Below are positions 33,933-53,821 of a DNA stretch of 64,000 bases, piece after piece. This DNA is from Mesoterricola silvestris (GTDB taxonomy: Bacteria > Acidobacteriota > Holophagae > Holophagales > Holophagaceae), in assembly GCF_030295405.1 (NCBI RefSeq), contig NZ_AP027080.1, positions 682,001 through 746,000 of the forward strand. Reading direction: 5' to 3'. How positions within the stretch are numbered: the first letter of the stretch is position 1; the number at the start of each line of letters is the position of its first letter. The position numbers and the translations under genes are program-made. Below the pieces are notes generated by a model. That model ran no database searches. It saw only the letters and a list, made by a program, of their open reading frames with translations, and was not told the DNA's origin.

Positions 33933-34246
33933 TTAACGTACCGTACTTCTGTTGTTCTGGTTCTCTCGTTCCAGAAATAGCATTCCAGTCCCTTGTGGCC
34001 TAATTTAGAGATTGCCTTGCACCCGGTGCTTTTGCATTGAACACCCCCATCCGTGGTAATGGATGAGTCGCATTTGCTTCCATTTGGACATGCGCAGGAT
34101 CCGCCCCCGCTGCCTGAGCACTCTATCCCTTCATTCGTTACATCACCTTCGTTGTATTCAGGATGTTGAATGCCGGAAGGATCATTTGCAAAGGCGGTTG
34201 TGGCCGAAAGTAGCCCTATCGCGGCCAAAAGGAAGGATGTTTGCAC
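33926..34246 (-). CDS. Small secreted Cys-rich protein
   Basis: 106 residues from the GTG at 34246 (GGAGA close upstream). Signal peptide VQTSFLLAAIGLLSATTAFA, then a Cys-rich mature part with eight Cys (CSGSGGGSCACPNGSKC, QCKSTGCKA, LECYFW, YVKC). Pattern suggests a disulfide-stabilised extracellular peptide. Coupled by a 7-nt overlap to the next secreted-protein gene. No family recognised. Confidence 0.55.
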   Translation of the reverse strand: MQTSFLLAAIGLLSATTAFANDPSGIQHPEYNEGDVTNEGIECSGSGGGSCACPNGSKCDSSITTDGGVQCKSTGCKAISKLGHKGLECYFWNERTRTTEVRYVKC

Positions 34247-34472
34247 ATTTTCTCCAGGAAGGAGGATGGGGATACCTTGGCGCACCCGGTGGACCAGGTC
34301 AAGGAGAAAGCCGACGCCGATGCCTTGGATTTCCAGTTGAATCGCAATATGGTCAAACACATTTCGGCCTCCATGCCTGCGTTCCCAAACTCCTGACGGA
34401 TTTGCCGTGCCCCATCTGAGGCCCGGACGGCGACGGTTTTCCGTTCCGGGTCTCTGCGCGCCGGACGAGGCG
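34247..34472. other. Host-side flank of the island, no gene assigned
   Basis: Stretch between the Cys-rich gene and the tRNA terminator. One plus-strand frame ending near 34397 (ADALDFQLNRNMVKHISASM...) reads like protein but has no start or family match; I leave it unassigned. Confidence 0.3.
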
Positions 34473-34502
34473 AAAGCCCGGAATGGAGGATTCCGGGGCT
34501 TT
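34473..34502 (-). terminator. Terminator of the disrupted host tRNA-Thr gene
   Basis: On the minus strand AAAGCCCCGGAAT - CCTCC - ATTCCGGGCTTT: a 12-bp stem with one bulged base, ending in TTT, 5 nt after the CCA of the tRNA 3' half. It belonged to the original tRNA-Thr gene and now follows only its 3' end. Confidence 0.7.
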
Positions 34503-34506
34503 GGGT

Positions 34507-34530
34507 TGGAGCCGCCTGTCGGATTTGAAC
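34507..34530 (-). pseudogene. 3' part of split host tRNA-Thr (T-loop to CCA)
   Basis: Minus strand reads GTTCAAATCCGACAGGCGGC then TCCA. CCGAC completes the T stem GTCGG at 53690-53744 and AGGCGGC completes the acceptor GCCGCCT there. It has no D or anticodon arm, so it is not functional alone. It marks the island end (attachment half-site). Confidence 0.85.
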
Positions 34531-34743
34531 AGATATTATATCCAAAAGATACATTTGTGTGTGTGACCAATTGGAAAGTTTTGATAACATTCTGCTTAGA
34601 TACATGATTTCATTATGCAAACAGCCAAAGTTATACATACTTGCTGTGGGACTTGCTTAAGGCAGCCGGCGCCCTCCTCGGTTATGCCCCTCGCCGGTTC
34701 TTATCGGGTTAGAGCGATAGCTAACTCTGCTTGTCATAAGATT

Positions 34744-34818
34744 TGGAGCCGCAAGAGGGCTTTGAACCCCCGACCCCCTGTTTACAAGACAGGCGCTCTA
34801 CCCCTGAGCTATTGCGGC
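34744..34818 (-). tRNA. tRNA-Thr(UGU), complete, island-borne
   Basis: 75 nt including encoded CCA. Acceptor GCCGCAA/TTGCGGC, D stem GCTC/GAGC, anticodon stem CCTGT/ACAGG with loop CTTGTAA (anticodon UGU), T stem GGGGG/CCCTC with one G-U pair. It differs from the split host tRNA-Thr at many positions in acceptor, anticodon and T stems but keeps the same D arm and anticodon. It lies inside the island, 213 nt from the host 3' half, and points toward the old tRNA terminator. Confidence 0.95.
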
Positions 34819-35386
34819 GTTACCTTCGGCCGGAGGAAATTTCCGGAAGCGATAGTATCCGGCAAGGAGGGGAAGATTTCACCTGGATTCTAGGTTCGGT
34901 GGCCCATCCATCTGATTTCGGGACCTCAAAAACACCCCCGCGCCCCGGTCCGGGTTCCGAGCCTACGGGCGTTCCGGGCGGGACCCGTCCCCGTTCCCTT
35001 CGGCTCGCCCACCACCCAAAAAGCGGGCGGCGGGTCCCAACTCGCCTCCGGTCACTCTTCGCGTTGCTCGTCCCGGCAAGGGCAGGCCCCTGCCGGGTGT
35101 CCAAGCTTGGGACACCCGCCCTGCACGCCCTCCGGTTCTCACCCTACCCGAGGCGCTCACGGCCGGGAATACTTGCCGAATAGCTGGCCAGGAAGCGATG
35201 GCGGAGGATTGAGCCACAGAGAGATACTCGAGGGCGCAGCCACCCGATGGAACTATTTACGCTGACAAACCAATGAATTTAGGAGTGCAAATAGGCCAAC
35301 CTTGCATAGAGCCGGAGGTTAGCGAAGGCCAGCCGAAGGTTTTGATGAAAAATACGGTAGGCGGGCCGGTCACAAATTGTGACCAG
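34819..35386. other. Noncoding GC-rich region with strong alternative hairpins
   Basis: 568 bp without a credible gene. Contains GGGACCCG/CGGGTCCC (34980-34987 / 35031-35038), CCCGGCA/TGCCGGG (35072-35078 / 35091-35097) and GGGTGTCC/GGACACCC (35095-35102 / 35110-35117). The last two share bases 35095-35097 and exclude each other. Could be a structured RNA, a dispersed repeat or recombination sites; frames through it are translations of tRNA and repeat sequence. Confidence 0.4.
35368..35384 (-). terminator. Palindrome just after the DUF4238 gene
   Basis: GGTCACAA-A-TTGTGACC, perfect, 2 nt beyond the stop codon of the minus-strand gene. A TTTTT run follows about 15 nt later. Could terminate that transcript. 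Confidence 0.45.
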
Positions 35387-36463
35387 TTACTGCCACACCC
35401 ATTGCCCGTTAGAATCCTCCTGGAAACAACCGTCCATTCGCATTTGTTTTGGCAAGGAGAAACTTGACGCTGCCGAGAAAACCTGCCGAAAGCAGTCATG
35501 GCATTGGGCGGAATTAATGTTCATAACAGCGTCGGGCCCTATGGAATGTGCATTACCGCTCGTCATCCCATCCATCAGCGTCTCGGCAAGGATTTTCGCC
35601 TCCCAGAGGAAGAAGGCTTGGGCTGGGGCTCTCCGTTCCAGCCTCAAAATTTCCTGATATCCGATCCAGATCTCTGCGACATGCTCCTTGCTCACCAGCG
35701 ACAGGCAAAGCGTCGGGGAAAGGGGAAAGGAGATCTCTACGTAAGGGGACCGCAGTCCCCTTGACCCTCGTTGCCACCTTTCTTTAATGGCCCTGTTGTT
35801 TATCCGAACGACTGGGTGGTCGGAAGTAATGAATGGGTCGGAATTAGTAGTCTCAAGAAGCATCCAGGCTTTATCCAAAAGCAATTCTGGTGAAAGTCGC
35901 CCTCCTCGAAGCTGATCAATGGCTAGTTTATTGACCCGATCATCGGTGAGGGGTTCATAGTCGGAAAAGGCTTCACGAAGTTCCACCCCCTTGCTCTCAA
36001 GACCCTTTTCCATGGCAAACAACATGGCCTTTGCATCTGCACGGGCCCGTGGGGTCCGGAGCAATTGTTTGATCAGGTAATCAGCTATAACAACTCGGTC
36101 CTTCGGTGTTAGATGCCCAATAGAACGCTTCCTGATTACCGTTTCAATAATTCTATCGATTGCAGCCTCAATCTTTCCAAAACCGATCTCTAGAGTATAG
36201 ATTTCTCCGTCCTCGATAAAGTTATAATAACCTTTCTTTGATGCGACATCATGAATCGTAGAAATTCCTTCAACACCTAACTTTTTATCATAGAAATGGA
36301 TTTTTGGTTCACCATCAGTGTTTGGAATAGCGAATCGACGAAGCAAGCATTGGGGAACATAGTGCTGTCGTTTAGCTAAATGTTTCCTTACTTCAGGAGT
36401 CACTTTGTTGGGGTGAATGGAGGTCCCGTAGTTAGTGCTGATGACCGGATGATTTATAATCAT
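35387..36463 (-). CDS. DUF4238-family protein
   Basis: 358 residues. The N-terminal signature KRQHYVPQCLLRRFA is that of DUF4238, followed by IHFYDKK and a helical region with RTPRARADAK; the C-terminal half has FITSDHPVVRIN and PLSPTLCLSLVS, also typical. Function of the family is not established; members turn up on mobile islands and near defence genes. AT-richer than the host. No signal peptide. First cargo gene next to the island tRNA. Confidence 0.7.
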   Translation of the reverse strand: MIINHPVISTNYGTSIHPNKVTPEVRKHLAKRQHYVPQCLLRRFAIPNTDGEPKIHFYDKKLGVEGISTIHDVASKKGYYNFIEDGEIYTLEIGFGKIEAAIDRIIETVIRKRSIGHLTPKDRVVIADYLIKQLLRTPRARADAKAMLFAMEKGLESKGVELREAFSDYEPLTDDRVNKLAIDQLRGGRLSPELLLDKAWMLLETTNSDPFITSDHPVVRINNRAIKERWQRGSRGLRSPYVEISFPLSPTLCLSLVSKEHVAEIWIGYQEILRLERRAPAQAFFLWEAKILAETLMDGMTSGNAHSIGPDAVMNINSAQCHDCFRQVFSAASSFSLPKQMRMDGCFQEDSNGQWVWQ

Positions 36464-36627
36464 TTGAGGTCTCCTGTAATGCTTTCGTGATTTTTATCTT
36501 GAGCCATACGTGATATACAAAAGCTTAGCAATAGGGACAAGATTTGAGCTAATCAACCAATGAAAAAGACTCAACGGCTGCCACTAGGCTCATGGTTTCA
36601 TTATTTTCTTCTAGATGAAGGTTTGAA

Positions 36628-37065
36628 TCAAAGACCTTCAGCCCATGCTCTCAGGTGATCTCGGACCTTTGTCATCCCCGGGATCCCCTCGGATGCCATC
36701 AACTCGAATGCGCTTCTACCCCTGAAAAGCGGGTTCGAATTCGGCCGGTGGGCCCATTCGTTCGCGGTAGCCGGCAACAAAGTATGAAGGTAGGTGTAGA
36801 TCTGCATGAGGAGGCTCACCCGCCTGAGGCCGTCCATCGTTGTCTCTAATCCTGGCTCGAGAAGCCTCCGTCGCTGTTCTCTCGTGAGATGCCATGCTTC
36901 AGCGATGTGATCAAACACGCGGGAACCTGGCCCAGCCAGCCGTTCTACAGCCTTCTTGGATAGTTTGTCTAGGGGCCAGCCATCCGTAGGATCGGCCAGG
37001 TTGGTCAAGTCAAAGCGAGCCCATAGCTTGCCTGCAACCCTCAAAGACTTCCGCATCTTCGCCAT
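36628..37065 (-). CDS. MbcA/ParS/Xre-type antitoxin (toxin-binding domain)
   Basis: 145 residues. The C-terminal part has the MbcA/ParS toxin-binding pattern: NEWAHRPNSNPLFRGRSAFELM then GMTKVRDHLRAWAEGL (W..N.f.G.sa.elm....l..V...L.A...G). The N-terminal half is helical with a possible DNA-binding segment. Such antitoxins normally pair with a RES-domain NAD-degrading toxin directly downstream. No RES gene is present on either side here, so it is an orphan or protects against a toxin elsewhere. It is preceded 97 bp upstream by a small gene on the same strand. Confidence 0.65.
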   Translation of the reverse strand: MAKMRKSLRVAGKLWARFDLTNLADPTDGWPLDKLSKKAVERLAGPGSRVFDHIAEAWHLTREQRRRLLEPGLETTMDGLRRVSLLMQIYTYLHTLLPATANEWAHRPNSNPLFRGRSAFELMASEGIPGMTKVRDHLRAWAEGL

Positions 37066-37162
37066 ATGCGCCTGTACGAATTATCGACTGGAGGAAGAAT
37101 CTTGCTTCATGGGCCAGGTCTCCGTTGATTCGGGGAACGAGATGATCCCATTGCGGCCGAGG

Positions 37163-37597
37163 TCAGGCTGGGGAACTGTTGGTTTGGGATTGGGTACCCT
37201 CGGGCTTGGTCCTGAGGAATAGGTATGAAGTTGCGAGAAGAACCTGTGCCTCCGACAAGCCGGTCGACTTCGAGATTGCTGTGAGCTCGTCTTTTTCCCG
37301 TCGGGATAGCATCACCCGTACTAGGTGCTTCCCCTGAACGCGACGCTTTCTTGCCGCCACATCATGGACTATCCGAAATTGCTCTGGCTTAAGGTAAGTC
37401 CTGACCTTGGTAAAGCCATCCATAATCCCATCGCCAAAGCGGCCGCTTCCGTAGCGAGCCAGCAGGAATTCAAAAGTCTCCTGGTCCAACCGGCAGGTTG
37501 GTCCTTCGAGCGACCGTGCCTTTCCCAAGGGGTCGAGGGAATCCGCTAGGATTTGGGCGAGGATCTCTGTGATTTGAGATTTCAGGTTGTCTGACAT
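37163..37597 (-). CDS. Small protein with possible ribbon-helix-helix C-terminus
   Basis: 144 residues from the ATG at 37597 (MSDNLKSQITEILAQ). The C-terminal segment LVRVMLSRREKDELTAISKS then TGLSEAQVLLATSYLFL has the strand-helix-helix rhythm of RHH DNA-binding proteins; the N-terminal half is unfamiliar. It is divergent from the Xre regulator with about 97 bp between starts, which contains inverted repeats. It could be the partner or regulator of the antitoxin-like gene downstream. Identity uncertain. Confidence 0.5.
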   Translation of the reverse strand: MSDNLKSQITEILAQILADSLDPLGKARSLEGPTCRLDQETFEFLLARYGSGRFGDGIMDGFTKVRTYLKPEQFRIVHDVAARKRRVQGKHLVRVMLSRREKDELTAISKSTGLSEAQVLLATSYLFLRTKPEGTQSQTNSSPA

Positions 37598-37653
37598 AGG
37601 CTTCCCCCGGCAGCCCACTTGTGGGGGGGTATGGGCGCCAATTGCTACTTATA

Positions 37654-37685
37654 GTCTGTAGACCTAAAGTCTTCAACCCAAGACT
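37654..37685. promoter_or_regulatory. Inverted repeats in divergent promoter (candidate operator)
   Basis: GTCT-GT-AGAC (37654-37663) and AGTCTT-CAACCC-AAGACT (37668-37685) lie side by side, just before the Xre start and upstream of the divergent small gene. The half-sites share GTCT/AGAC, so a dimeric regulator, most simply the Xre protein, could bind both. Confidence 0.45.
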
Positions 37686-37694
37686 ATCCACCAT

Positions 37695-37919
37695 GTGGTT
37701 AGAAAAGGTGGAAAAGGCACGCCTGCGAGGCTTCGGTTTGCGAGGAGCTTAAGAGAGATCCGCCTGGAAAAAGGCCTTTCCCAGGAAGCTTTGGCAGAAA
37801 TGGCCAACCTCCACCGGACGTATATTGGGTCAGTGGAGAGAGGAGAGCGAAATATTTCAATTGATAATATGGAGGTACTTGCCATCGCCCTGGGGCGGGA
37901 TTTAAGGGAAATGCTCTAG
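37695..37919 (+). CDS. Xre-family HTH transcriptional regulator
   Basis: 74 residues, a single HTH_3 domain: RFARSLREIRLEKGLSQEAL, AEMANLHRTYIGSVERGERN, then ISIDNMEVLAIALGRDLREML. The recognition helix region LHRTYIGSVERG is typical. The GTG start has almost no leader or ribosome-binding site, so the message may be leaderless. Similar single-domain Xre proteins control restriction or defence genes (C-protein like). It is the only plus-strand gene in the island and is convergent with the helicase-nuclease gene. Confidence 0.8.
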   Translation: MVRKGGKGTPARLRFARSLREIRLEKGLSQEALAEMANLHRTYIGSVERGERNISIDNMEVLAIALGRDLREML

Positions 37920-38046
37920 GCTTTCAAGGCCAAGCGCCTTCTGGACCGGGTCGAAGCTGCCCTGAATTCGAATGATTCTAGGACGGTGTGGACAATGGCG
38001 GCCACGATCCGCTGCATGGGGTCAGCACCAGCGAAACGCTCACTGT

Positions 38047-40797
38047 TTAGATTGTCTTGGCTGCACTGCACATCTGACAGTAGTCGCATTTGCCGCATGT
38101 TTTCACACTGGGGTTCGGCGGCAACTTGTTCTGGCGAAGGGCGTCTGCCGCAGAAACGACATCCCGCCTCACATCCACCATGAATTCGTCGTCCACCGAA
38201 CGGCTCTTCTGCTTTAGCTGATCAAGCTCGTAGATTTCGACGTAGTCCGGCCGCCGCCCGGTCAATTCCTGGTAGCCTAGCGCGTAAATGTGGAGCTGAG
38301 TTTCGGTGGCCGCTTCGGACTGTGCTCGATCTGTCGACTTCAAATCGACGATAGTGACTTCACCCGTCTCGATCTTGCGCACAAGGTCAATTCGGCCTGC
38401 TACAGACACCCCATCACCCAGTGCGATCTCAATGGCCTTTTCAGAGAACTCCACATGCCGGAATTTATCGGAGTTGCGCCGGATGTAGGCCCCAATCACC
38501 CTCTCTGCCGAACGCTCGAGTTGTTCCCGCAACGCCGGGTAGGCATATGGGGCTCGCAGATGCCGCCGCACGAGTTCCGCCGATTCTTCGGGATTCACTG
38601 TTTCTCCGCGCAATGCGCGAGAGTGGACCTCGGCGAGGGCGTCGTGCAGCGATTTTCCGTAACCGAGGGCCTCATCAAGTGGTGCGTTGAACCCGTAGAG
38701 GATACGCAACTTGAACTGATAAGGGCATTCGAAGAAGTATTTCACGTCGGAGAACGACAGCGTTACATTGGCGACCGACGACTTGGGCTGAGGCTCCAGC
38801 TTTGGCCGCTCAGTGTAATTAGGCGCCCTGCGTTTCACGTAATTGGAAACCAAGACGTCTTGGAAGTAATCCGATGCCGCCTGTGCCGTCCGATTCCCCG
38901 GGGTTGGCGCCCAGCTGAGATGCAGGAATTTCTGAGCACGGGTAACCGCCACATAAAAGAGCCTGCGCTCGTCGGCATCTCCACCCTTGTAGCGCACCGC
39001 GTTGTCAAAGGCGCTGGCAGGAATAAGGTGCCAAGCCGTTCGTCCGCCGCCACCCTTGGCGGGAAACCGGTTCCTGACCAGTTGGGGAATGAACACTACT
39101 GGCCATTGCAGTCCTTTCGATTGGTGGACAGTCATGATGCGCACGGCATCGGGACTCACAAATGCGTTGTCTTGCCAGCCCTCCGGGTAGGCATTCACAG
39201 CGTGGTACTGCAGAAATCCCGCGAAGCTGGTGTATTTTTCGCCCGGGCTCGAATGGAAATTAATGCTCTCGAAGTCCGAGATTGCCTGGCTGAACTTTCC
39301 GAGGTTATAGAATGCAATCTCGCCACGCCCGTTTGGCACACGCTCTTCGCGCAGGCCGCAAGCTTCGATGAATGCAATAAACTGTCGTTGCAGGTTGTAG
39401 ACCTTGTACTGACCAATTGCGGCATTCTTCATGTCGCGTCGCGCACTGGACGCGCCAGCGATGGCGGTGTTCAAAGCCGCAGGGTCAATGCCAAGGTCCG
39501 CCCGCTGCCATGCAGTGCGAAGCGTTCCCTCGTCAATTGTTTCTGCAAGAAAATAAAAGAGTTGACGGGCCGCCTCGGCTTCATCGGTCTGGAATAGATT
39601 GTCCATGCCCGTGATAACGAAAGGAATTCCGGCAGAGGCCAGGGCCCGCGCGACCACCGCACCGTCCCGACGGACGGATCGCAGCAAGATCGCCATGTCT
39701 GACCAGGAGATGCCCCGTTCCCCCTCGCCATCGCGGATTGCCACGCCCCTCAGGGCATGGCAGGTGGCGGCAATGTGATCCGCCTCCTGATCGGGGCCAT
39801 CAAATCCCAACGCGGTAATGTCGCCAACCTCATATGTTTGAGAGGCAGTCGCCTTCATTGCCTTTGGCAAGCGGTGAGCCAGTTTGCTAATGAAGTCGCG
39901 CGCGACCGCAACCACGCCCTCGCTTGACCGGAAGTTCTCTTCCAACCGGATCTGCGTAACTTTTGGATAGCGATTCTCGAAATTCAAAATGTTGCGCACA
40001 TCGCTGCCACGCCACTGGTAAATTGTCTGGTCATCGTCACCGACGACGCAGACTGATGCGCCTAAGGCATGCAGTGCCTCGACGACCGCCTCCTGGATTG
40101 GATTTACATCCTGGTATTCATCGACGATCACGTGCCGGATGCGAGCTGCAAGTCGCTCCCGCAATCCGGTGTTCTTTGCCAGTTCTGCGACTGCCTCAAG
40201 CAAAATGCCGGAGTAGTCGAGGTAACCCTTACTGTGGAGCACGTGCTCATACGTGATTAGGTGTTCAACCACCGACACTCCGGCGAGCGCATCAGGAGCA
40301 ATCGCGTTGTCCTCGCGGAGGATATTCATGGCGTCGATATAGTGTTTGGTATCGGTGTAACGCTTGAGCTGCGAGCCGCTGAGAGTGCTGCTCTGGGTCA
40401 ATCCTGAGGCTCTAGAATGCCGATCAACGAATAGGGTCTGCTGAACCTCGTTGAGCACCTCGTACTTCATGAACGCCGGCACCTCGGATTTCAGCAACTC
40501 GAGGCAGAATCCGTGGATGGTTCCGACGTACATCTCGGCGAGCCCAGTGATGGTGCCAAGCTGGTCGTGGCAGCGGGTGTGGATGCGTTCTTTCAGCTCG
40601 GCCGCGGCCTTGTCGGTGAAGGTGAACGCGACGATGTTTTCAGGCCTGCATCCAGCACCGCCTTCCGCCACCGGACGCAGCAATGTAACGACGCGCTGGG
40701 AAACGACTTCGGTCTTTCCGGAGCCGGCGCAAGCGATAAGTTGCAGATTGCCGGTGGTGTGTGCAATGGCCTCGCGTTGCTTGTCTGTAAGTGCCAC
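38047..40797 (-). CDS. UvrD-like superfamily 1 helicase fused to Fe-S PD-(D/E)XK nuclease
   Basis: 916 residues. UvrD/Rep core: Q-motif LTDKQREAI, Walker A CAGSGKTE, VGTIHGFCLELL, Walker B VDEYQDVNPIQ, GDDDQTIYQWRGSD, motif IV/V MTVHQSKGLQWPVVFIP and VI FYVAVTRAQKFL. The C-terminal third is an AddB/Cas4-like nuclease: GRIDLVRK and VTIVDLKST (Asp...Asp-Leu-Lys) with cluster cysteines in FFECPYQFKL and Cys901, 904, 907, 910. It should unwind and cut DNA ends. In an island cargo position and without an AddA/AddB partner, a phage-defence role is more likely than housekeeping recombination. Named systems such as Gabija use a shorter UvrD-like subunit, so it is not that. Confidence 0.82.
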   Translation of the reverse strand: MALTDKQREAIAHTTGNLQLIACAGSGKTEVVSQRVVTLLRPVAEGGAGCRPENIVAFTFTDKAAAELKERIHTRCHDQLGTITGLAEMYVGTIHGFCLELLKSEVPAFMKYEVLNEVQQTLFVDRHSRASGLTQSSTLSGSQLKRYTDTKHYIDAMNILREDNAIAPDALAGVSVVEHLITYEHVLHSKGYLDYSGILLEAVAELAKNTGLRERLAARIRHVIVDEYQDVNPIQEAVVEALHALGASVCVVGDDDQTIYQWRGSDVRNILNFENRYPKVTQIRLEENFRSSEGVVAVARDFISKLAHRLPKAMKATASQTYEVGDITALGFDGPDQEADHIAATCHALRGVAIRDGEGERGISWSDMAILLRSVRRDGAVVARALASAGIPFVITGMDNLFQTDEAEAARQLFYFLAETIDEGTLRTAWQRADLGIDPAALNTAIAGASSARRDMKNAAIGQYKVYNLQRQFIAFIEACGLREERVPNGRGEIAFYNLGKFSQAISDFESINFHSSPGEKYTSFAGFLQYHAVNAYPEGWQDNAFVSPDAVRIMTVHQSKGLQWPVVFIPQLVRNRFPAKGGGGRTAWHLIPASAFDNAVRYKGGDADERRLFYVAVTRAQKFLHLSWAPTPGNRTAQAASDYFQDVLVSNYVKRRAPNYTERPKLEPQPKSSVANVTLSFSDVKYFFECPYQFKLRILYGFNAPLDEALGYGKSLHDALAEVHSRALRGETVNPEESAELVRRHLRAPYAYPALREQLERSAERVIGAYIRRNSDKFRHVEFSEKAIEIALGDGVSVAGRIDLVRKIETGEVTIVDLKSTDRAQSEAATETQLHIYALGYQELTGRRPDYVEIYELDQLKQKSRSVDDEFMVDVRRDVVSAADALRQNKLPPNPSVKTCGKCDYCQMCSAAKTI

Positions 40798-41391
40798 GGG
40801 TTTAGCCCTCGTGCCGGTCTTCCCTCAACCCTGAGACCAAATGAGGGGCCCGGGGTTTGGGTGACGGTGGTGTGAATGTAGGCAGAATCGAGATGTGAAG
40901 TTCCGCACATGGTAGCACTAAGGGAGGATGGCGAATCTGGCGGGACCGAATTCTTGATGGTCTGTGCCCTATTCTTAGTCTTGATGTGCGGAACGCCGGT
41001 CAGGAGGCTCTGCCCCTGACGCCTCCGACAACCGGCAAGACCATCTCAAACCAAATGCCTAGACAAGAATTTGGGGCAATACGAGCCTCGGGTGCCGGAT
41101 GGTGTGGCCGGCAATGGCAACGCAACAATAATCATTCTAAGAAAAGCAGTTTGGTTGTGAGCTTTCGGCAGGTGTGCGCAGAGCCGCTTGGTTCCCAATT
41201 GGGCATGTCTTTGGTTGAGTCGTAGGGACTCACCTGGAACCAAAGCACCCAACGCCCCTGGGAGCTATTGGGCCTCAAGCCCCTTCAGGGTGGCTTGGTA
41301 GTTTCAGGGCAAACGCTTTGAATTTTTCTGGGTATTTAGCATTCAAGGAATGGGAGAACCGGGGATTTTTGAACCGTGAAAGAGCTTGGGG
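40798..41391. other. Intergenic region in island, no gene seen
   Basis: 594 bp between the helicase-nuclease start and the STAND NTPase stop, AT-richer, carrying presumably the helicase promoter near 40800-40980. Short frames here are unconvincing and no tRNA or long repeat was found. Confidence 0.35.
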
Positions 41392-45792: not shown

Positions 45793-45860
45793 TTCTCACC
45801 TGGTGAGAAGCTGAAACGTTGAATATCACTTGGAAGGACGACACAAGACGGTCGCATGCC

Positions 45861-45874
45861 CTGTTGTCCGACAT
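45861..45874. promoter_or_regulatory. Palindrome CTGTTGTCCGACAT upstream of STAND gene
   Basis: 69 bp before the STAND start. Differs at one base from the perfect palindrome at 53565-53578 upstream of gmtY (TGTTG-TC-CAACA). Candidate shared operator within the island. Confidence 0.4.
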
Positions 45875-46021
45875 CTTGCTGGTTCTTGAAATAATTATTC
45901 TAGCAAGGTCCCAGCGAGATCCCAGCCACTTCGTCAGATTGGCTCAAGCTACCGTATGCCCAAGTTGTCTCTCAGGAGGCTGGCTCTATGGGAGGCCGCG
46001 CTAGCCGCCGGAGAACTTGGA

Positions 46022-48112
46022 TCACCATGGCCCTACCACCATCCCGGTGCGCCGCCGATTCGGGGCCGGGGTGGCTGTCACGGCGGTCTCCAGGGCGTCC
46101 GGGTCCCCCAATAGCACCACTTGCTCCTGGGCCCGCGTCAGAGCTGTATAGACCAGGGTTCGATCAAGGAGGCGGCTGGGGAAGACGGGGATGATGACCT
46201 GCCGGAACTGGCTGCCCTGGGCCTTGTGGACCGAGATGGCGTAGGCGAGGTCGACGGCCTCGCGCCGGTCCTCACGGAAGGCAATGGGATGATCGTGGCC
46301 GTCCCATCGGACCCGGACACCATCGGGCAGAACCTCGTCCACGGTGCCCAAGGTTCCGTTAAACAGCATGGCCTCGTAATCGTTCTCAAGGTGGATCACC
46401 GGATCTCCCTGGGCCAACCCAGCCCAAACTGGCTTACCGGTGGACCGCAGGGCGTGGAGGGCTGCGTTAACAGCAGCGGTTCCAGCGGGCCCCCGCTTGA
46501 TAGGGGAAAGGATCCGAGCTTCACCCCCCATGGCTTCCTGGGCCTCGATGACAAGGGCCTGGGCGTCTTTCAGGCGGCATGGCAGAAACGACACCCCGGG
46601 GATGGCCCCGGCGAAGGCCGGAAGGTGCGGAAGTGTCCCCTCCCTGACCATCCGGGACACAGAGGGGATCCCGGTGGTCTCCGCCTGCCGGTGGATCCGG
46701 GTCAGTTCCACCTTGGGGACCATGGGATTGGTGGCCAAGGCCCCGAATACCAGCCCAAACCCAATGGGGGGAAGTTGGTAGGGGTCGCCCACCAGCAGCA
46801 CCCGGGTTTCGGCGGGCAGCCGCCGCAGGAGGGTGTAGGCCAGGGAAAGGTCAAGCATGGATGCCTCGTCAACGACGATCAGGTCGCCGCCCCCGAGGGT
46901 CATTTGCTGGCGCTCCAGTGCCCCCAGGAAGCCCGCCAGGGTCCGGGCGGGGCATCCGGACTCCCGGAGCCGTTCGGCTGCCCTACCTGCCAAGGCGACC
47001 CCCAGGATGGAACCCCCGGTGGCCTCCTGGACATGCCGGACAGCCTTCAAGAGGGTGGTCTTGCCGGTGCCAGCGCCGCCCATCACCAAGGCGAATCGCT
47101 GGGTCGCGGCCAGCCAAATGGCGTGACGCTGCTCATCCACCAGGGGCAGGCCTTCCCTGGCCTCAAATTCTGCCACCAGGTCAGCGACCTGGCCGTCTCC
47201 GGGCCGGGACCAGAACAGGTTCTCGGACGGGGCGAACTCGGCCTCCACACGTTCCCGGATCCGGTCCCGGACAAAAGATTCCATCACCCAGGGCCCAAAT
47301 GGTTGCCAGAACCCATCCGCCAGCCTGACCACGGCGCAGTCCGCCTCGGCCTGTGCAAGCGCCTCCCGGCTGTCTTCTGGCGAGCACCTAAGGAGCTCCC
47401 TGACGCCCGCAATGAGGTCAGTCTCCGTGATGGTGGTGTGCTTATTGGCCAGGGCTCGGTAGCAGGTGGCCTCGACGGCGGCGATCCGGCGCTCCGGGCA
47501 GTCCGTGTCGACCCCTGCGTCCAGGGCCGCCGCGTCCACCCGGGTCCATGGCGCGACCGCTAACATGCGGTAGGGGTTCTCCGCCAACTTGTCGGCGGTG
47601 TCCGCCCCCCAAAGGCGCAGAGCCTTGGCAGCCAGGGCCACGGGGAAGTGGTAGCCTTCCAGCCAACGGATCGCCTTGGCCTCCTCTAGGGACTCCCTCC
47701 ATGCGTCCACCAGCGAGGCCGCGAGGTCGGGTCCTAGGACCGAGGATAGGCGGGGCGTGTCCCCAGCGTCCAGGAGGTCGTGGAGCCCCTCCCCAAAGGC
47801 GTCCCAGAGGCGGCGAGCGCGGGCTTCGCCGATCCCCTGGAAGGCCCGGTTTCCCGCAAGGAACCGTTGGAGCAATACCCCTTTGGGGCAGACCGGCACG
47901 GCCCGCTGGGCCTGGACCTGGGGGCCGAACCTGGGGTGGGTCCGGAGAGGACCGACCACTTCCCAACGCTCCCCGATGGCCGGGGGCCGGTGGATCACGG
48001 CGGCATCGGCCACGACCCGGTGGAGTGTCCCGGCCTCGTCCTGGCCGGTGAAGACGGCTCCACCGCTGGCCCCGGGCCAGACCTTGCAGACCGTTAGTGC
48101 GAGGTCCGTCAC
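46022..48112 (-). CDS. RecD2-like superfamily 1B DNA helicase
   Basis: 696 residues. An N-terminal OB/HhH-like region (FQGIGEARARRLWDAFGEGL), P-loop MGGAGTGKTTLL, motif II VVDEASMLDLSLAYTLL, VLLVGDPYQLPPIGFG, and C-terminal UvrD_C_2 signature AYAISVHKAQGSQFRQVIIP with YTALTRAQEQVVLLG. This is the RecD2/TraA type 5'-3' helicase. Its ATG overlaps the TGA of the upstream small gene (ATGA), placing it as the fifth gene of the recombination operon, so it may assist excision or transfer and not defence. Confidence 0.85.
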   Translation of the reverse strand: MTDLALTVCKVWPGASGGAVFTGQDEAGTLHRVVADAAVIHRPPAIGERWEVVGPLRTHPRFGPQVQAQRAVPVCPKGVLLQRFLAGNRAFQGIGEARARRLWDAFGEGLHDLLDAGDTPRLSSVLGPDLAASLVDAWRESLEEAKAIRWLEGYHFPVALAAKALRLWGADTADKLAENPYRMLAVAPWTRVDAAALDAGVDTDCPERRIAAVEATCYRALANKHTTITETDLIAGVRELLRCSPEDSREALAQAEADCAVVRLADGFWQPFGPWVMESFVRDRIRERVEAEFAPSENLFWSRPGDGQVADLVAEFEAREGLPLVDEQRHAIWLAATQRFALVMGGAGTGKTTLLKAVRHVQEATGGSILGVALAGRAAERLRESGCPARTLAGFLGALERQQMTLGGGDLIVVDEASMLDLSLAYTLLRRLPAETRVLLVGDPYQLPPIGFGLVFGALATNPMVPKVELTRIHRQAETTGIPSVSRMVREGTLPHLPAFAGAIPGVSFLPCRLKDAQALVIEAQEAMGGEARILSPIKRGPAGTAAVNAALHALRSTGKPVWAGLAQGDPVIHLENDYEAMLFNGTLGTVDEVLPDGVRVRWDGHDHPIAFREDRREAVDLAYAISVHKAQGSQFRQVIIPVFPSRLLDRTLVYTALTRAQEQVVLLGDPDALETAVTATPAPNRRRTGMVVGPW

Positions 48113-48519
48113 GGGATCACCCGCTGCCCTGTGGCAACCATGTGGGCCTCGATATGGCCGTACTGTGCCAGCCTCGCCCGCAGCCCGTGGACCTCCGCCG
48201 TCAGGGACGCCACCTGGGTCTCAAGGGTCTGGATTCGCTGGTCCTTGCCGTCGTCCTTGGCCAAGGGCATGTCCCGGGCTTCGATCCCGGCCAAACCCAT
48301 CTCCTGCGCCGCCGCCTCCAGCATGGCGCGGCAGTGGGGATTCTTGTAGAGGGACTGCCGGTCGACGCATGCCGCCAGGGCGATGGCGGAGGCTGAAATT
48401 TTGCCATTTCTGCCGGGGAGGCCCTTTCCCTCTGCCTTGAGCCTTTGAATGTAGGTCTCCAGGGCGGCTTGGGACTCCTGGCCAACCTTCTGGCTGCTCT
48501 TGGGGAGCTGGGCATTCAT
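48109..48519 (-). CDS. Small coiled-coil protein of the GMT operon
   Basis: 136 residues. N-terminal region (ALETYIQRLKAEGKGLPGRN, then GKISASAIALAACVDRQSLYKN) looks like a small HTH-type DNA-binding unit; C-terminal half is a coiled coil (RIQTLETQVASLTAEVHGLRA). This layout is reminiscent of the TnpC/DUF6262 accessory proteins of Tn554-type elements. It sits 3 nt after gmtX and overlaps recD-like by 4 nt. Probably an accessory factor for the recombinases; direct homology is not proven by eye. Confidence 0.55.
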   Translation of the reverse strand: MNAQLPKSSQKVGQESQAALETYIQRLKAEGKGLPGRNGKISASAIALAACVDRQSLYKNPHCRAMLEAAAQEMGLAGIEARDMPLAKDDGKDQRIQTLETQVASLTAEVHGLRARLAQYGHIEAHMVATGQRVIP

Positions 48520-48522
48520 GGG

Positions 48523-49182
48523 CTATTTCCCGAGGATCTTGCGGATCGCAGTGGCGTATCCGAACTGGTAAATGACCCGCTTTCCTTTCCGGATTTCCCC
48601 CCGCTCGCCTTCGGTCCACCCTTCATTGCCAAGGAACTCGGGAGAAATGGCCGCCTTCAGGGCATCCCGCTCCGGTTCGGTAAGCTGGGCAGCCATTTCC
48701 AATATGGCGATTGGTGTGCCTTTGGGGGTCGGTACAACTGTGGCTCCTATTGGACGCATGTCCACCGTCTCAACCCTGGTGGCCTTTAAGTGGTTAACCT
48801 GAGCCTTCAGGTTGTCTCTTTCCGCGATGATGGCCTGCATGATGGACCGGATCGCAGGGTCCTCGATCCGCATCAGGTAGCCATGGCTTGCCAAAGCCTT
48901 CGGGGGCGGGGCCACTGGTGGTCCCACGTATGCTCCCCAGGCCAGGATCAAGTCTTTATAGTCCCGGGAGGTGACGTTATAGAGGATCCGGCCTTTGAAG
49001 ATCCCCTGCTGCTCGCAGAGACGGCCAATAGTGGCCAGAGAGAAATCCCTGGAACCGGTCTCGTGCTGCTTTCGGCAGATTTCGTGGATCCGGTTCAGGG
49101 TTCGCTGGACCTGTGCGCGAGGCCCTTTGGCGAGCAGGGCAGCCAGGACGTCCTCAGGATGAATGTCGGTCGTGAAGGGCAT
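48523..49182 (-). CDS. gmtX: GmtX (gamma-mobile-trio protein)
   Basis: 219 residues. The N-terminal half has RDFSLATIGRLCEQQGIFKG then NVTSRDYKDLILAW, the characteristic GmtX stretch (small HTH-like unit); the middle contains a short coiled coil (IIAERDNLKAQVNHLKA) and the C-terminus a helix-rich region ending RKGKRVIYQFGYATAIRKIL. It overlaps the end of gmtZ by 29 nt, matching the usual gmtY-gmtZ-gmtX order. Function within the trio is unresolved; a DNA-binding accessory role is likely. Confidence 0.72.
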   Translation of the reverse strand: MPFTTDIHPEDVLAALLAKGPRAQVQRTLNRIHEICRKQHETGSRDFSLATIGRLCEQQGIFKGRILYNVTSRDYKDLILAWGAYVGPPVAPPPKALASHGYLMRIEDPAIRSIMQAIIAERDNLKAQVNHLKATRVETVDMRPIGATVVPTPKGTPIAILEMAAQLTEPERDALKAAISPEFLGNEGWTEGERGEIRKGKRVIYQFGYATAIRKILGK

Positions 49183-52165
49183 TCTTTGCTCCGTTTCCGT
49201 GTGGATGGACCAGTTTTACGGGTTCGGGGGATCCGGCCAGGATTTCCGTCAGGTCTGCGCCCAGGCGCTCTCCGAGACGTTCCCCGGCATCCATCAGGGC
49301 GATGACTTCTCGTTTGCCGATTTCGGGCTTGGCAGGGTTCATGACCTTTGCAAGCTGACGCATAACGGCGTTGCCGATGACCAACTGCTCTCTTTCCGAA
49401 AAGCGCAAGAACATCGGTGGCAGTCCCTCATGGGCGAATGCCGCGTCGAGGAGTTGGCTGCGCCTCAGGATCGCCTTCCCTGTCTCAAGGTCAGGATAGA
49501 GTTCAAGATCTTCGCAAACCCCAGAAAGCTGTAGTAGTTCAGAGTCCGTTTCTTCAAACCGCGCCTGTACATCCATGGAGGAACCGACGGAGATCAGCTT
49601 CATTCCTTCGGAGGGCTCCTTCAGTGCATCCAGGCACCGCTCGATCAGCTTCCAGCAGGCCACGAGCGACTCCGCGAGTTCGTTCCAGCGCCCGATGGCA
49701 GTTTCGCGGAGGCGCTCGGCACGATTGAGTTCATTCATCCTATCGAAAGGCACTCCTGCGGTGGCGGCATCAAACCTCGCCGCCTCAAGCGCTTCGTGGG
49801 CCTGTTCGTTTCGAACAGCCTCGGCCACGGCTTCGTCCACCTGGTAGGACAAGTTGTTGAACCTGGCCGCCAGCGCTGGAAGGTAATGGGGCATGGTCAC
49901 AAACCACCGACAACGGACGCAGTTTCTCGGGCCACCGGGGACGGGGCCATAGCGGTGGTGGGAAGGGTCCGTAATCGCACCGCCGTTGAAACACCCGCCG
50001 ATCCGTTTATTTTCCTCGAGTTCACTGACGTTCCCGCCGACGAGGCACATTCCGATCCCCATTTCCATCCATCCAGCCGGGTTTCGGTCGGCGGGATTCT
50101 CGGGGATCGTCGCTGCGAGGCCGGTGGGGCTATTACAGATGGCCGTTTCCAGCATCCGGGAATATTTTGTGTCCCGAAGGAAAGCGAGGATGCTTTGTCC
50201 CTGGTTGGCCTCCAGACGGGCAACCCCGTCTGCAAGGGCATCTTCAATCCTCGTCGCCCCCGGTTTGGTGTAGTAGAGGGTCATGAGGAGACGGGCATGG
50301 CCAACCGCCTTCGCAAGGATGTGGAAGGGAACTTGGCCGTCCAGAGCCAGAGCGGTGACCATGGAAACCCGCAAACTGTGGAGGGGGAAATTGGTCGCGA
50401 TGGTGCGTTTGGTCGCGCTTCCAGGCAAAACGAGCCGGATTTTGGAACCATCCGAATGGGTCACCCGCTCAGCCGCAAGGTCCTCTTCCAGTTTGCCGAG
50501 GAGCATGTACCAGGGGTTTCCGAGCATACCGTCCGTCAACGGATTTTTCCGTTCGCTTTTCTTCTGCGCCTCGGCGTGCCTGAAAAGGAAGCATGCATCC
50601 GGATAGGCTGCCAACTGGATAGCAGACTTAACGCCGACATGGCGGTGGTCCAAGTCCGACCACCTTGTCGGGGCCTTTATTGGATTGTATTTGGACTGCC
50701 AATTCCGGAGCTTTTCAAGCCAATAATAAACATCTCGGTGAACTGGTCCGGGTGTTTGCGGCCATGGAACCGTGAAGCCAAGGTGGGGCCCAGACTTGGC
50801 GATGTCGGCAGTCTTGTTGGTATTGATATAAAGCTCCGTGGAGAATGTTCCGTCCTGAGCCTTCCTCCGCCGCAGTACGCCCTGCTGCCTGGGCATCCCT
50901 TCTGTCCCTTGGGCCAGGGGGCCGGAGTTCAAAACCCACTGCCCGCCGTCGAGTTTCCAGGTATCCGCTTCACCGCTGTCCAGGACTCGGACTTGGAAGG
51001 TCCTGAGGGGCACGAGAAGCTTCACAAGAAGCGCCACCCATCTCACGGGGGACCACATTTCCAGCACGTCGCCGCCGGAATAATCCGCCCTCTTCCTAAC
51101 CCGAACGACGCAATCCGGGTCATTCCGGTCTATCTGGTCCTCGGTGACCGGGAGCCAGCCCGCGGGAATCGCGCCCCCTTTCCCTTCGCTAGGCCCGGAG
51201 GCCGTTTGAGCCCAAGTCCAGTCGGAGAAATTGGGGCCGCTGGCCAAGATGGTCCGGAGTTTCTCGATGTATCCAAACGGCAAGGGGCTGTGAACGCTTT
51301 CGTCCAGTTTCGGAACCAGACTGTAGGATTTGTAGGCGACAGGGTTTCGGTAGATATCGGGAACCGCCACCCGGCCATGGTCATTCTCCACAGTCAGTTT
51401 CTCCGTCATCACCCATCCCAGGAAATCGTGAAGGGAGTTGTTCTGCCTGATCCCGTCGGTGGATTGGCCGTAGATGGTTCCGAACACATCTGGCAAAAGA
51501 GTGGTCTTCAGGAAGAAGGTAGGGATGTCCATGAGCAGCCCTTGTCGGGCCAAATATTTCTCTAGGAAAGTGCCAACCGCATCCACTTTCAGCCTGACGC
51601 CCCGATGGGCGGTCCCCATCCATCTCGCGGCCAGCAACCGCCACTCCTCAACCTGGGGGTAATTCCATGTGATCCAACTAAACTTCGTGTCGGCGTGCCG
51701 GGGCTTATAGATCCTGGTACGTGGGGCACCGTGTTCAAAGGTATTGCTGTTCCGATATTTGACCGGGTTCCGATAGGCAGGGTCTACCTCGACCCGCCCG
51801 CTCTTGCCATGGGTCGAGCAGAGATCGCGCAGGACGAACTCTATGAAGGCGTGCATCCGGTTGTTCCAGATGGCCCCCGCATGGGATTTCGGGCAGACGG
51901 TCTCGAAGAAGTCTGGAATCTCTGAGGTTGTCAGGAGAAATTTCTTTGGGTCCAGGGGGAGACGCTGCTGGAGGATGAACTTGTCCAGGAACATCGAAAG
52001 CGCCTGGAGGTTGAACTTATGGCTCGTTCGGTCCTTGTCGCTGTCTATCCATTTCGCGGCCAGGCCCCGCCAAGCTTCCAGTTCCGGGTACTGCCTGCTG
52101 GCCCATTTCAGTTCCAGATCCAAAGTGCGCCAAGTCTTCTTCGCTTTTCCTCGCGTTACGGCCAT
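49154..52165 (-). CDS. gmtZ: GmtZ (VPA1269-type large integrase)
   Basis: 1003 residues. Matches the large GmtZ/VPA1269 family: N-terminal duplicated core-binding-like regions (KWASRQYPELEAWRGLAAKW and TWNYPQVEEWRLLAARWMGT), a central VPLRTFQVRVLDSGEADTW segment, and a tyrosine-recombinase catalytic block LHSLRVSM (His596, Arg599), VGHARLL (His623) and TLYYTKPG (Tyr631/632). The region after residue 720 has Cys-containing segments (MCLVGG, GGCFNGG, CVRCRWF) that may bind metal. Ten nt after gmtY. The complete catalytic set argues that it is active. Confidence 0.85.
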   Translation of the reverse strand: MAVTRGKAKKTWRTLDLELKWASRQYPELEAWRGLAAKWIDSDKDRTSHKFNLQALSMFLDKFILQQRLPLDPKKFLLTTSEIPDFFETVCPKSHAGAIWNNRMHAFIEFVLRDLCSTHGKSGRVEVDPAYRNPVKYRNSNTFEHGAPRTRIYKPRHADTKFSWITWNYPQVEEWRLLAARWMGTAHRGVRLKVDAVGTFLEKYLARQGLLMDIPTFFLKTTLLPDVFGTIYGQSTDGIRQNNSLHDFLGWVMTEKLTVENDHGRVAVPDIYRNPVAYKSYSLVPKLDESVHSPLPFGYIEKLRTILASGPNFSDWTWAQTASGPSEGKGGAIPAGWLPVTEDQIDRNDPDCVVRVRKRADYSGGDVLEMWSPVRWVALLVKLLVPLRTFQVRVLDSGEADTWKLDGGQWVLNSGPLAQGTEGMPRQQGVLRRRKAQDGTFSTELYINTNKTADIAKSGPHLGFTVPWPQTPGPVHRDVYYWLEKLRNWQSKYNPIKAPTRWSDLDHRHVGVKSAIQLAAYPDACFLFRHAEAQKKSERKNPLTDGMLGNPWYMLLGKLEEDLAAERVTHSDGSKIRLVLPGSATKRTIATNFPLHSLRVSMVTALALDGQVPFHILAKAVGHARLLMTLYYTKPGATRIEDALADGVARLEANQGQSILAFLRDTKYSRMLETAICNSPTGLAATIPENPADRNPAGWMEMGIGMCLVGGNVSELEENKRIGGCFNGGAITDPSHHRYGPVPGGPRNCVRCRWFVTMPHYLPALAARFNNLSYQVDEAVAEAVRNEQAHEALEAARFDAATAGVPFDRMNELNRAERLRETAIGRWNELAESLVACWKLIERCLDALKEPSEGMKLISVGSSMDVQARFEETDSELLQLSGVCEDLELYPDLETGKAILRRSQLLDAAFAHEGLPPMFLRFSEREQLVIGNAVMRQLAKVMNPAKPEIGKREVIALMDAGERLGERLGADLTEILAGSPEPVKLVHPHGNGAKNALHDRHSS

Positions 52166-52175
52166 CGCCCGTCCT

Positions 52176-53555
52176 CTAAGGAATGCCCAACGCCGGAATG
52201 ACGGCGGTGGACAGAGTTGAATGCAGGCGCTCCGCCCCTAAGCGTAGGTGTTCGATCATCTGAGCAGTGGTGGGGGTGGTGTAAACGGCCTGACTGTCCA
52301 GGGAACTGTGGTGCATGAACCTGCGGATCTCCTCCTGGGAGAACCCGCCACCGACGAGTCGACGACCATAGGCGTGCCTGTGGCCGTGAGGGGTGGTCCC
52401 GAGAGCCTTCCCCACCACCAAACCAATCCGTTCGCAGGCCCGCCTGTGGGCCTTGTTGTATTGGGACAGCCCATATATCCCGCCCCGGGGATCCTGGCCG
52501 AGGTTGATGAAGGCGAACGGATGCGCCCTGGGTACTCGCGCCACCTGCTCCAGGTAGAGGTACCAGACCTTCAGGAACAGTTCACCAAACTCCGGGATAA
52601 ACCAATAGGCTCGCTTGTAATAGGGAGCATCGTGAGTTCCGCCCTTCCAGCCCGCTTGACGGCTGCCCATGAGCAGGTGACGGGGGGCAAGGCCGAACTT
52701 TGCGGCCAAGTAGGCCGCCCGGTTCCCCTGTCGTGGGTTACCGCGTTCGTCCTTCCAGTCGTTAGGGGCATCCCCGAAGGAGGGGTGATGGATCAGGACC
52801 ATCGCCCGCTTTGGGTTGGCTGGGTCGGGAAAGACATCCCCGATATAGAGGTGGAAGGGTTCCGATTCCCGGAACCCAGCCCCATGGAGGAGGAGGGTGA
52901 TCAGGATGTCTCGGTAGCTCTGGCGGCCCGCGACCTTGAACCCTTCCATCAGTAAGTCCTCGAAACTTTCTTCGGGAAAGGATGGGGGCTCGCCCCTTTC
53001 TACCCTGGGCGGGCGACGAGCCCTGAACATCCGCCCCTGCGAATTGGGAGTGTCGTTGGCGGCCCAGGTGTGTCCCAGAAAGGCCCGTTCCCGTCTGAAC
53101 TGGTAGGCGGCCTCGTCCGCCAGGCGGTCATAGGCGCTGCCCGCATATCGAGGGTTCACTGCCGCTGCAACTGGGTTGTCCTTCCCGAGCCACCCAAAGA
53201 AGTCAGACAGGTGTGTGATTACTTTGGCGGCCTCGGAAGGGGCCAGGGGCCTCCAGCACAGCCAACTGGGGTCCAGCCCAGATTCCAGGTCAAAGGTCCC
53301 CGTGTAGAGTCGCTGGGCAAAGTTCTGAAAAAGCGCCCTGGGGTCTGGCTGGTCTGGGTTCGCCTGCACATATTCCAGGAAAAGCTGGACCGAACGGTTC
53401 ACCTTGGTCATCCAGGCCAAACTCCGGTCGTGCGCGTGGGCCAAGCAGTAGTCCAGAAGCGGCGTCAGCCATCCCTCTAGAGTCCGGAGGGCGGGGATCT
53501 CCGTGTAGGCCCCAGTGTTGTCCGTATGAACGCGGACCCGCTGCGTTATAAACAT
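52176..53555 (-). CDS. gmtY: GmtY (gamma-mobile-trio tyrosine recombinase)
   Basis: 459 residues with the full tyrosine-recombinase set: Arg229 in GAGFRESEPFHL, His390 and Arg393 in HGHRHAYGRRL, His416 in RFMHHSSLDSQ and the nucleophile Tyr425 in AVYTTPT. The N-terminal half is helical (SAM-like core-binding domain). First gene of the five-gene minus-strand operon and 134 nt inside the island end, directly downstream of the disrupted tRNA-Thr and its promoter. The start at 53555 has no good ribosome-binding site. It presumably makes the strand exchange at the T-loop of tRNA-Thr, with GmtZ. Confidence 0.8.
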   Translation of the reverse strand: MFITQRVRVHTDNTGAYTEIPALRTLEGWLTPLLDYCLAHAHDRSLAWMTKVNRSVQLFLEYVQANPDQPDPRALFQNFAQRLYTGTFDLESGLDPSWLCWRPLAPSEAAKVITHLSDFFGWLGKDNPVAAAVNPRYAGSAYDRLADEAAYQFRRERAFLGHTWAANDTPNSQGRMFRARRPPRVERGEPPSFPEESFEDLLMEGFKVAGRQSYRDILITLLLHGAGFRESEPFHLYIGDVFPDPANPKRAMVLIHHPSFGDAPNDWKDERGNPRQGNRAAYLAAKFGLAPRHLLMGSRQAGWKGGTHDAPYYKRAYWFIPEFGELFLKVWYLYLEQVARVPRAHPFAFINLGQDPRGGIYGLSQYNKAHRRACERIGLVVGKALGTTPHGHRHAYGRRLVGGGFSQEEIRRFMHHSSLDSQAVYTTPTTAQMIEHLRLGAERLHSTLSTAVIPALGIP

Positions 53556-53564
53556 GGGGATGGC

Positions 53565-53578
53565 CTGTTGTCCAACAT
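53565..53578. promoter_or_regulatory. Perfect palindrome TGTTGTCCAACA before gmtY
   Basis: CTGTTGTCCAACAT, 10 nt upstream of the gmtY start codon. A 13/14 match precedes the STAND gene at 45861. The position just before the start suggests repression of gmtY. Confidence 0.45.
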
Positions 53579-53689
53579 GTATGCAATATGTGGTTCGACT
53601 TACAGGGCGTCAAGGCATGTTTTCGATAAATTTTCACCGGCCTTGGGCCGTCCCAAGCCTTTCTATGTATCCATCCCCGGGGGGAAGAA

Positions 53690-53744
53690 GAACCGACGAC
53701 CTTTCGCTTACAAGGCGAGTGCTCTACCCCTGAGCTAAGGCGGC
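53690..53744 (-). pseudogene. 5' part of split host tRNA-Thr(UGU)
   Basis: 55 nt: acceptor 5' strand GCCGCCT, D arm GCTC/GAGC, anticodon loop CTTGTAA (UGU), variable loop, T-stem 5' strand GTCGG and GTTC of the T loop, then island sequence. The partner strands are 19 kb away at 34507-34530. The top pair of the anticodon stem (27 C against 43 A) is mismatched, as expected if selection has been lost since the split. Confidence 0.88.
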
Positions 53745-53753
53745 TGGGCAGCC

Positions 53754-53782
53754 AGTATAGCCTGGGGGCCTTCCGTCCGGAA
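53754..53782 (-). promoter_or_regulatory. Sigma-70-type promoter of the split tRNA-Thr
   Basis: Minus strand -35 TTCCGG (53777-53782), 17-bp spacer, -10 TATACT (53754-53759). Transcription would start a few nt before the tRNA 5' end. With the gene cut, transcripts now run through the 5' half into gmtY about 190 nt further on. Confidence 0.55.
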
Positions 53783-53821
53783 CGAAGCCCGGTCAGACTC
53801 GCCTCCTGCGCGGAGGCCGCG

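Follow-up and report, generated by a model that had tools for sequence, protein, structure and literature searches.

How did a bacterium come to carry a 19-kb mobile island in the middle of a gene for a threonine transfer RNA (tRNA), and which gene now supplies that tRNA? The question is raised by a stretch of 64,000 nucleotides of Mesoterricola silvestris (contig NZ_AP027080.1, positions 682,001 to 746,000 of the forward strand; called the window below, with all positions counted from its first letter), in which a Gamma-Mobile-Trio (GMT) island separates two parts of a tRNA-Thr(UGU) gene. We consider it probable that the island split the T loop of the sole UGU gene of its host through a hairpin-type choice of target, and that its own tRNA-Thr(UGU) likely replaces the broken gene.

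The divided gene and the island within it

The features on which the argument depends are the following.

53690..53744, minus strand: 5' part (55 nt) of the host tRNA-Thr(UGU) gene, GCCGCCTTAGCTCAGGGGTAGAGCACTCGCCTTGTAAGCGAAAGGTCGTCGGTTC, ending GTCGGTTC and extending up to GTTC in the T loop; it is identical to the first 55 nt of the gene as it stands uncut in three congeners (G002, G004, G005)
34507..34530, minus strand: 3' part (24 nt) of the same gene, GTTCAAATCCGACAGGCGGCTCCA, which starts GTTCAAATCC and ends CCA
34477..34497, no strand assigned (listed on the plus strand): predicted terminator hairpin downstream of the 3' part
34531..53689, minus strand: GMT island of 19,159 bp, absent from G004; its limits follow from the tRNA halves and from the conserved motif on the gmtY side
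53663..53689, minus strand: gmtY-side end of the island, TTCTTCCCCCC, 8 nt, ATACATAG, in register with related islands
34531..34554, plus strand: distal end of the island, where GATACAT reads inward as at the other end; it only loosely resembles the distal motif of related islands
34744..34818, minus strand: intact island tRNA-Thr(UGU) with encoded CCA (ARAGORN; RF00005)
52176..53555, minus strand: gmtY, tyrosine recombinase of 459 aa (NF040693, 498.2 bits, cut-off 340)
49154..52165, minus strand: gmtZ, integrase of 1003 aa (NF047926, 972 bits, cut-off 600; PF13009)
48523..49182, minus strand: gmtX, 219 aa (NF040692, 219.9 bits, cut-off 40)
41392..45792, minus strand: HyoA family, predicted NACHT-domain antiphage protein of 1466 aa (NF058534, 1648.5 bits, cut-off 1200), without a PADLOC match

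The two host parts have GTTC in common and, when joined, form a 75-nt tRNA-Thr(UGU) that is accepted by ARAGORN; in the window itself neither half is called, the sole tRNA call being that of the island. The joined halves are identical at 75 of 75 bases to the intact tRNA-Thr(UGU) of G002, G004 and G005, while two further congeners (G001 and G003) have an intact sequence variant. In all five the intact gene adjoins at least part of the right flank of the window, the match beyond the tRNA amounting to 48 nt in G005. In G004, the left flank (14247-32930, matched as three blocks with gaps at 85-89% identity) and the right flank (53690-56131) bracket one intact tRNA. Since the gene is intact in congeners and the locus is syntenic on both sides in G004, the tRNA-Thr(UGU) gene was once whole and was broken by the island in its T loop.

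The genes gmtY, gmtZ and gmtX are adjacent (48523-53555) at one end of the island and all score above their NCBIfam equivalog cut-offs. With this trio, definable ends, an empty site in a relative and predicted defence cargo, the element is a GMT island. The 5' part of the host gene runs directly into it (GTTC/TTCTTCCCCCC), and as the gmtY-side motif is in exact register with that of related islands, the junction can be placed in the T loop, following GTTC. That the island restores the tRNA by bringing a 3' end for it is ruled out, because the 5' part passes straight into the conserved GMT end.

A prior description of the window made from its letters alone (the sequence-only reading) had placed the 5' 55 nt of a tRNA-Thr at 53690-53744, had taken the halves for a single former gene crossed over at the shared GTTC and left unrestored, and had expected an intact tRNA-Thr at an empty site in relatives. 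Each of these points is confirmed by the comparisons above, and island-free relatives with the same two half-tRNAs were looked for and not found. The 3' end that it placed at 34473-34530 is correct only in part: the tRNA portion occupies 34507-34530, and 34473-34506 is terminator and flank.

None of the 75 tRNA positions carries a substitution, and the flanks differ by 11-15% from those of G004. The chance that 75 unconstrained nucleotides would show no change is about 1% at a rough 6% per lineage, so that the undamaged halves suggest a probably recent insertion. An extra 1.58 kb of low-GC DNA (32931-34506) between the host left flank and the 3' part of the tRNA has no counterpart in G004, and the island is therefore not the sole difference between the genomes at this locus. 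This extra segment holds an open reading frame of 313 aa (32991-33932) without a Pfam or PADLOC match.

Threonine tRNAs of the genome and the decoding of ACA

The genome (G000) is a single contig of 4,994,678 bp. A covariance search with RF00005 returned 44 tRNA matches, all 44 of which could be typed; the threonine anticodons among them are GGU, CGU and UGU, one each, and the UGU one belongs to the island. An anticodon-loop pattern found one UGU tRNA-Thr in this genome and one in each of the five congeners, G002 and G005 being drafts that are 81 and 83% complete. A search of the genome with the DNA of the intact host gene recovered the two halves, the island tRNA and otherwise weaker, shorter or other-anticodon matches, with no further full-length UGU gene. 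ARAGORN, run on 80 regions (1.6 of 4.99 Mb), reported no Thr(UGU) there; it agreed with the covariance search on all 14 genes of these regions and made four extra calls that look spurious (ten extra when introns were allowed). By these four approaches, of which the ARAGORN run covered a third of the genome, the island tRNA is the only tRNA-Thr(UGU) found, which is also the outcome of the gene count, and of the hunt for a second uninterrupted copy, that the sequence-only reading had called for.

Under standard wobble a UGU gene is needed for ACA only, given a tRNA-Thr(CGU) that reads ACG. As the genome has tRNA-Thr(CGU), only the decoding of ACA is at stake, and the suggestion that the host may depend on the island for ACG codons as well is not sustained. 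ACA accounts for 8 of the 103 threonine codons in seven flanking host genes (3 of these in serS, identified at 441 bits vs a cut-off of 302) and for 47 of 288 in ten island genes; the host genes thus use the codon and require a tRNA that reads it.

The island tRNA can be folded into a complete cloverleaf and scores 67.0 bits with RF00005, vs 70.5 bits for the intact host gene. It had been described as a different tRNA from the one destroyed, and this is correct: 57 of 75 bases are identical to the host UGU gene, which rules out that it is a copy of that gene. It is 83% identical to the host's own Thr-CGU, and its best match elsewhere, among the matches listed in 396 genomes of the phylum, is 85% over 68 nt. 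A source was also sought in phages (best 85.9% over 71 nt), in plasmids (80% over the full length or 84.7% over 79%) and in viral contigs, where it has no exact 31-mer match. The intact structure and the inventory suggest that the island tRNA likely now decodes ACA codons in place of the broken host gene.

Insertion sites of related islands and the competing explanations

Related islands were found through GmtY. A single-sequence scan of genome contigs gave no match and an alignment scan gave 161 relatives, the best 80 of the 161 loci being 37-67% identical; in the protein database the best 120 relatives among the matches listed are 63-77% identical, and viral contigs gave none. A strong GmtY match was present in 2 of 396 phylum genomes, namely G000 itself and G409, a genome of the same family that shares a piece of at least 100 nt with L105. 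Many related islands have a common gmtY-side end (TTATT(C/A)CCCCC, 8 nt, ATACATAG). A search for this motif found matches in 16 of 26 genomes (21 ends), and among 369 genomes of the class of G426 only in G426 itself.

The end motif was seen near gmtY in 19 of the 80 loci and not in the other 61; one of the 19 (L098) was left out for want of a left flank, and the remaining 18, with four ends from the motif search in 26 genomes, taken as longer stretches (L234x, L238x, L239x and L251x), make up 22 ends. Four more ends of that search, near contig ends (L236, L249, L250 and L252), were left out of the target analysis. The gmtY motif lies within 3 kb in 20 of the 22 (L238x and L239x lack it there), and both ends were definable in 13, the distal end being recognized by a motif near TTAGGGTATAAGTC. 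This distal motif was not matched in L090, L093, L094, L114, L126, L251x, L238x or L239x, the first three of which are covered by 12 kb or less of sequence, and a match with three mismatches in L079 was dropped as it had no adjacent stem. More distant GmtY clades (~40% identity) have other flanks. Five loci with a distant gmtY (L137, L143, L144, L145 and L147; 37-39% identity) have similar upstream flanks, as if that clade used one fixed site.

When the flanks are read across the islands, an A-tract and a GC arm on one side face a complementary arm and a T-tract on the other. All 13 islands with both ends defined lie inside an inverted repeat with a stem of 7-16 nt (mean 10.7), vs a mean of 5.6 in 156 mismatched arm pairs; stems of at least 7 nt occur in 13/13 islands vs 40/156 mismatched pairs, and stems of at least 9 nt in 10/13 vs 8/156. 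In a second control, with 462 mismatched pairs, 26 attain 8 nt, 5 attain 9 nt and 2 attain 10 nt, and in a further one 9 of 462 reach 9 nt vs 10 of 22 observed. Read by eye, a run of at least four T follows the stem in seven islands, which are plain terminators (L078, L082, L083, L084, L085, L086 and L088); the run is shorter or not clear in L081, L095 and L234x, and other inverted repeats are the targets of L089, L106 and L141. The flanks of L106 and L141 are mirrored, as if the same site had been entered in opposite orientations, which is expected if the target is a palindrome. This apparently shared palindromic site possibly lies inside a coding sequence. None of the 13 islands carries a tRNA, and the joined flanks of 11 of them (all but L106 and L141) contain no tRNA gene according to ARAGORN.

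In the window, the T arm is the stem-loop GTCGG-TTCAAAT-CCGAC, and the junction lies in its loop. The window island probably follows the same hairpin-loop insertion rule: it shares its recombinases and its end with the related islands, and the T arm is itself a stem-loop. We propose that GmtY, GmtZ and GmtX would find their target in an inverted repeat whose loop they recognize or are led to, in the relatives often that of a terminator, and that the T arm (stem GTCGG/CCGAC, loop TTCAAAT) would have served as the hairpin target, met in the same way as a terminator. For an ordinary island, striking the only UGU gene would mean the death of its host; the window island could persist there since it supplies a tRNA of its own. 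If it were excised precisely at GTTC, the host gene would be whole again, with GTCGGTTCAAATCCGAC as the predicted empty site, and the hold on the host is thus weaker than the addiction-like lock-in that had been suggested: only imprecise loss, or loss after decay, would be lethal, and the dependence would become permanent only if the host halves decay. Strand-biased elements (PMC10214605) and some GInts (PMC5385486) are reported, in the available parts of those accounts, to leave no empty site; if GMT islands did likewise, the dependence of the host would be firmer.

A wider claim can be put forward only tentatively, and we would sooner expect it to fall than to stand as a whole: that GMT recombinases are structure-guided and enter hairpin loops of almost any sequence, and that the tRNA of this island has replaced an essential host tRNA, with ACA being translated only through it.

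Several observations weigh against the interpretation given here. Part of the hairpin rule is circular, since the islands from which the distal motif was first derived had been picked out by their stems; six islands were found later by the motif, and of these five have an adjacent stem (L086, L089, L106, L141 and L234x) and L079 does not. Nine of the 22 ends have no usable distal end. The GmtY proteins of the related islands analysed are, where listed, 63-67% identical to that of the window, and the 77% relative lies on a contig of 1.9 kb. The best complementary word across the window island is 5 nt, no better than in the mismatched control, so that its fit to the rule depends on the T arm being an established stem-loop, and a true terminator hairpin (34477-34497) just downstream of the host tRNA gene was not used as the target. 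Ahead of the island tRNA, no sigma-70 promoter of consensus type was found. Finally, the inventory is incomplete: the 44 tRNAs include no Ile(GAU), Ala(UGC) or Leu(UAA).

With regard to these missing tRNAs, an Ile(GAU) pattern had no match in the six genomes of the genus (G000-G005) and two matches in each of four sister-genus genomes; the single ribosomal RNA spacer that was located is without a tRNA, and a group I intron, sought as the cause, was not found.

The strongest competitor is the view that the island is an evolved tRNA-Thr specialist, with recombinases that target the T arm and a replacement tRNA kept as a fixed element of its insertion strategy, much as the sequence-only reading had it. 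The island tRNA lies ~0.2 kb inside the distal end and has the anticodon of the destroyed gene, as such a specialist would predict, and window arms no more complementary than the control leave room for a sequence-specific target (GTTC). The related islands point the other way, with 0/13 carrying a tRNA, 11/11 of those examined lying outside tRNA genes and 13/13 inside inverted repeats; moreover, a single copy of this state is known, and the window's genome is itself one of the only 2 of 396 phylum genomes with a strong GmtY match. We therefore regard a replacement strategy evolved against tRNAs as unlikely. With no tRNA in any of the 13 relatives, the present state looks more like an accident that was survived than like a general strategy; the simpler account is that an island which targets hairpins hit a tRNA gene by accident, an event that only one carrying a tRNA could survive.

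It is less probable still that the host once had two tRNA-Thr(UGU) genes and lost the other later, the passenger tRNA of the island becoming essential only then. Duplicate UGU genes do occur in the family, since G035, of a sister genus, has two (C1:2288674 and 2292406, ~3.7 kb apart), but G001-G005 all have one UGU gene, at this locus. That the split gene still yields a tRNA by trans joining of half transcripts, with the island tRNA as a supplement, seems very improbable: the 75 unsubstituted positions beside flanks that differ by 11-15% from G004 would agree with it, but a recent insertion accounts for undecayed halves, and no matching leader or trailer was seen at the junctions by eye, no dedicated search having been made. 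An assembly artefact can practically be dismissed, given one 4.99-Mb contig, a conserved GMT end exactly at the break and an exact join.

The comparison with related islands provides a testable rule for the recombinases of the antiphage-carrying GMT islands, namely insertion in inverted-repeat loops, often terminators, as in those with two definable ends. Such a rule, if true, would explain harmless insertion at many places, and one would expect that, rarely, other stem-loops such as tRNA arms are hit by accident. Breaking what is apparently the only gene for an essential tRNA and supplying a foreign isoacceptor would be a route by which a mobile element becomes indispensable; for a host, islands of this kind would amount to a one-step swap of a core tRNA, and a mobile defence island would hold part of the host's genetic decoding.

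Remaining cargo and comparison with known systems

GC content is low at 33-46 kb of the window. The rest of the island encodes the following.

48109..48519, minus strand: small DUF6262 protein, weakly VPA1267-like (below cut-off)
46022..48112, minus strand: RecD2-like SF1 helicase, below the RecD2 equivalog cut-off
38047..40797, minus strand: UvrD-type helicase fused to a PD-(D/E)XK nuclease (domain search)
37163..37618, minus strand: 151-aa protein, no family found
36628..37065, minus strand: 145-aa protein with an Xre/MbcA/ParS C-terminal domain just below cut-off (23.8 bits, cut-off 24.5)
35387..36463, minus strand: DUF4238 protein (domain search)

The two small genes at 36628-37618, of which one encodes the antitoxin-type Xre/MbcA/ParS C-terminal domain just under its cut-off, may form a pair of the toxin-antitoxin kind.

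Group IIC introns insert at terminator hairpins, and they differ from the window island in their retroelement chemistry, which is not tyrosine recombination. Classical tRNA-gene islands resemble it in being tyrosine-recombinase islands that occupy a tRNA gene, and some of them cross over in the T loop. In the window, unlike in these islands, the gene stays broken and a whole gene for a different isoacceptor is supplied, so that the feature of restoration is absent; the available part of the Islander account describes tRNA-gene islands as ordinarily restoring the target gene by carried sequence (PMC4383910).

The GMT islands of Mahata et al. (2024, Nat Microbiol), as described in papers citing that work, have, like the window island, the genes gmtY, gmtZ and gmtX side by side at one end, definable ends and cargo for defence (the HyoA family). 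The window island stands apart from them in belonging to a Holophagaceae-type (Acidobacteriota) genome, in lying inside a tRNA gene and in carrying a tRNA. GInts, strand-biased elements (SEs), RIT and Tn554 likewise have several recombinase genes at one end and an imperfect core at their junctions, and are set apart from it by their protein families as named in the passages cited (PMC5385486, PMC10214605). The characteristic GInt set is ginABCD, three integrases and a helix-loop-helix protein; as judged with GMT and Pfam models, the window genes correspond to GMT equivalogs and the third has no Pfam domain. Reported GInt sites, in the same passages, are gene ends (ABC transporter, ssb, ribonucleotide reductase) and not hairpin loops (PMC5385486, PMC10214605).

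Among the literature matches listed, none described terminators as targets of GMT islands or an island that replaces a tRNA, and we claim neither to be unpublished; the hairpin rule may already be known to the authors of the GMT work (Mahata et al. 2024). In the disruption of tRNA-Thr(GGU) in Caldiarchaeum, as its abstract presents it, a mobile element parts a tRNA-Thr fragment from an intact tRNA-Thr (PMC3293823). That case differs in being archaeal, with a 1.8-kb element that has a predicted recombinase and a proposed gain of an intron, and the abstract names no GMT genes or hairpin target (PMC3293823). The tRNAs of fungal mitochondrial plasmids are similar to the present case in that, according to the part of the report available, a selfish element may supply a tRNA lost by the host genome, although the carrier there is an organelle plasmid and not a gene-breaking island (PMC9925561). 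Within what these sources describe, the Caldiarchaeum tRNA-Thr and the fungal plasmid tRNAs are the nearest precedents found for the take-over of a tRNA by mobile DNA.

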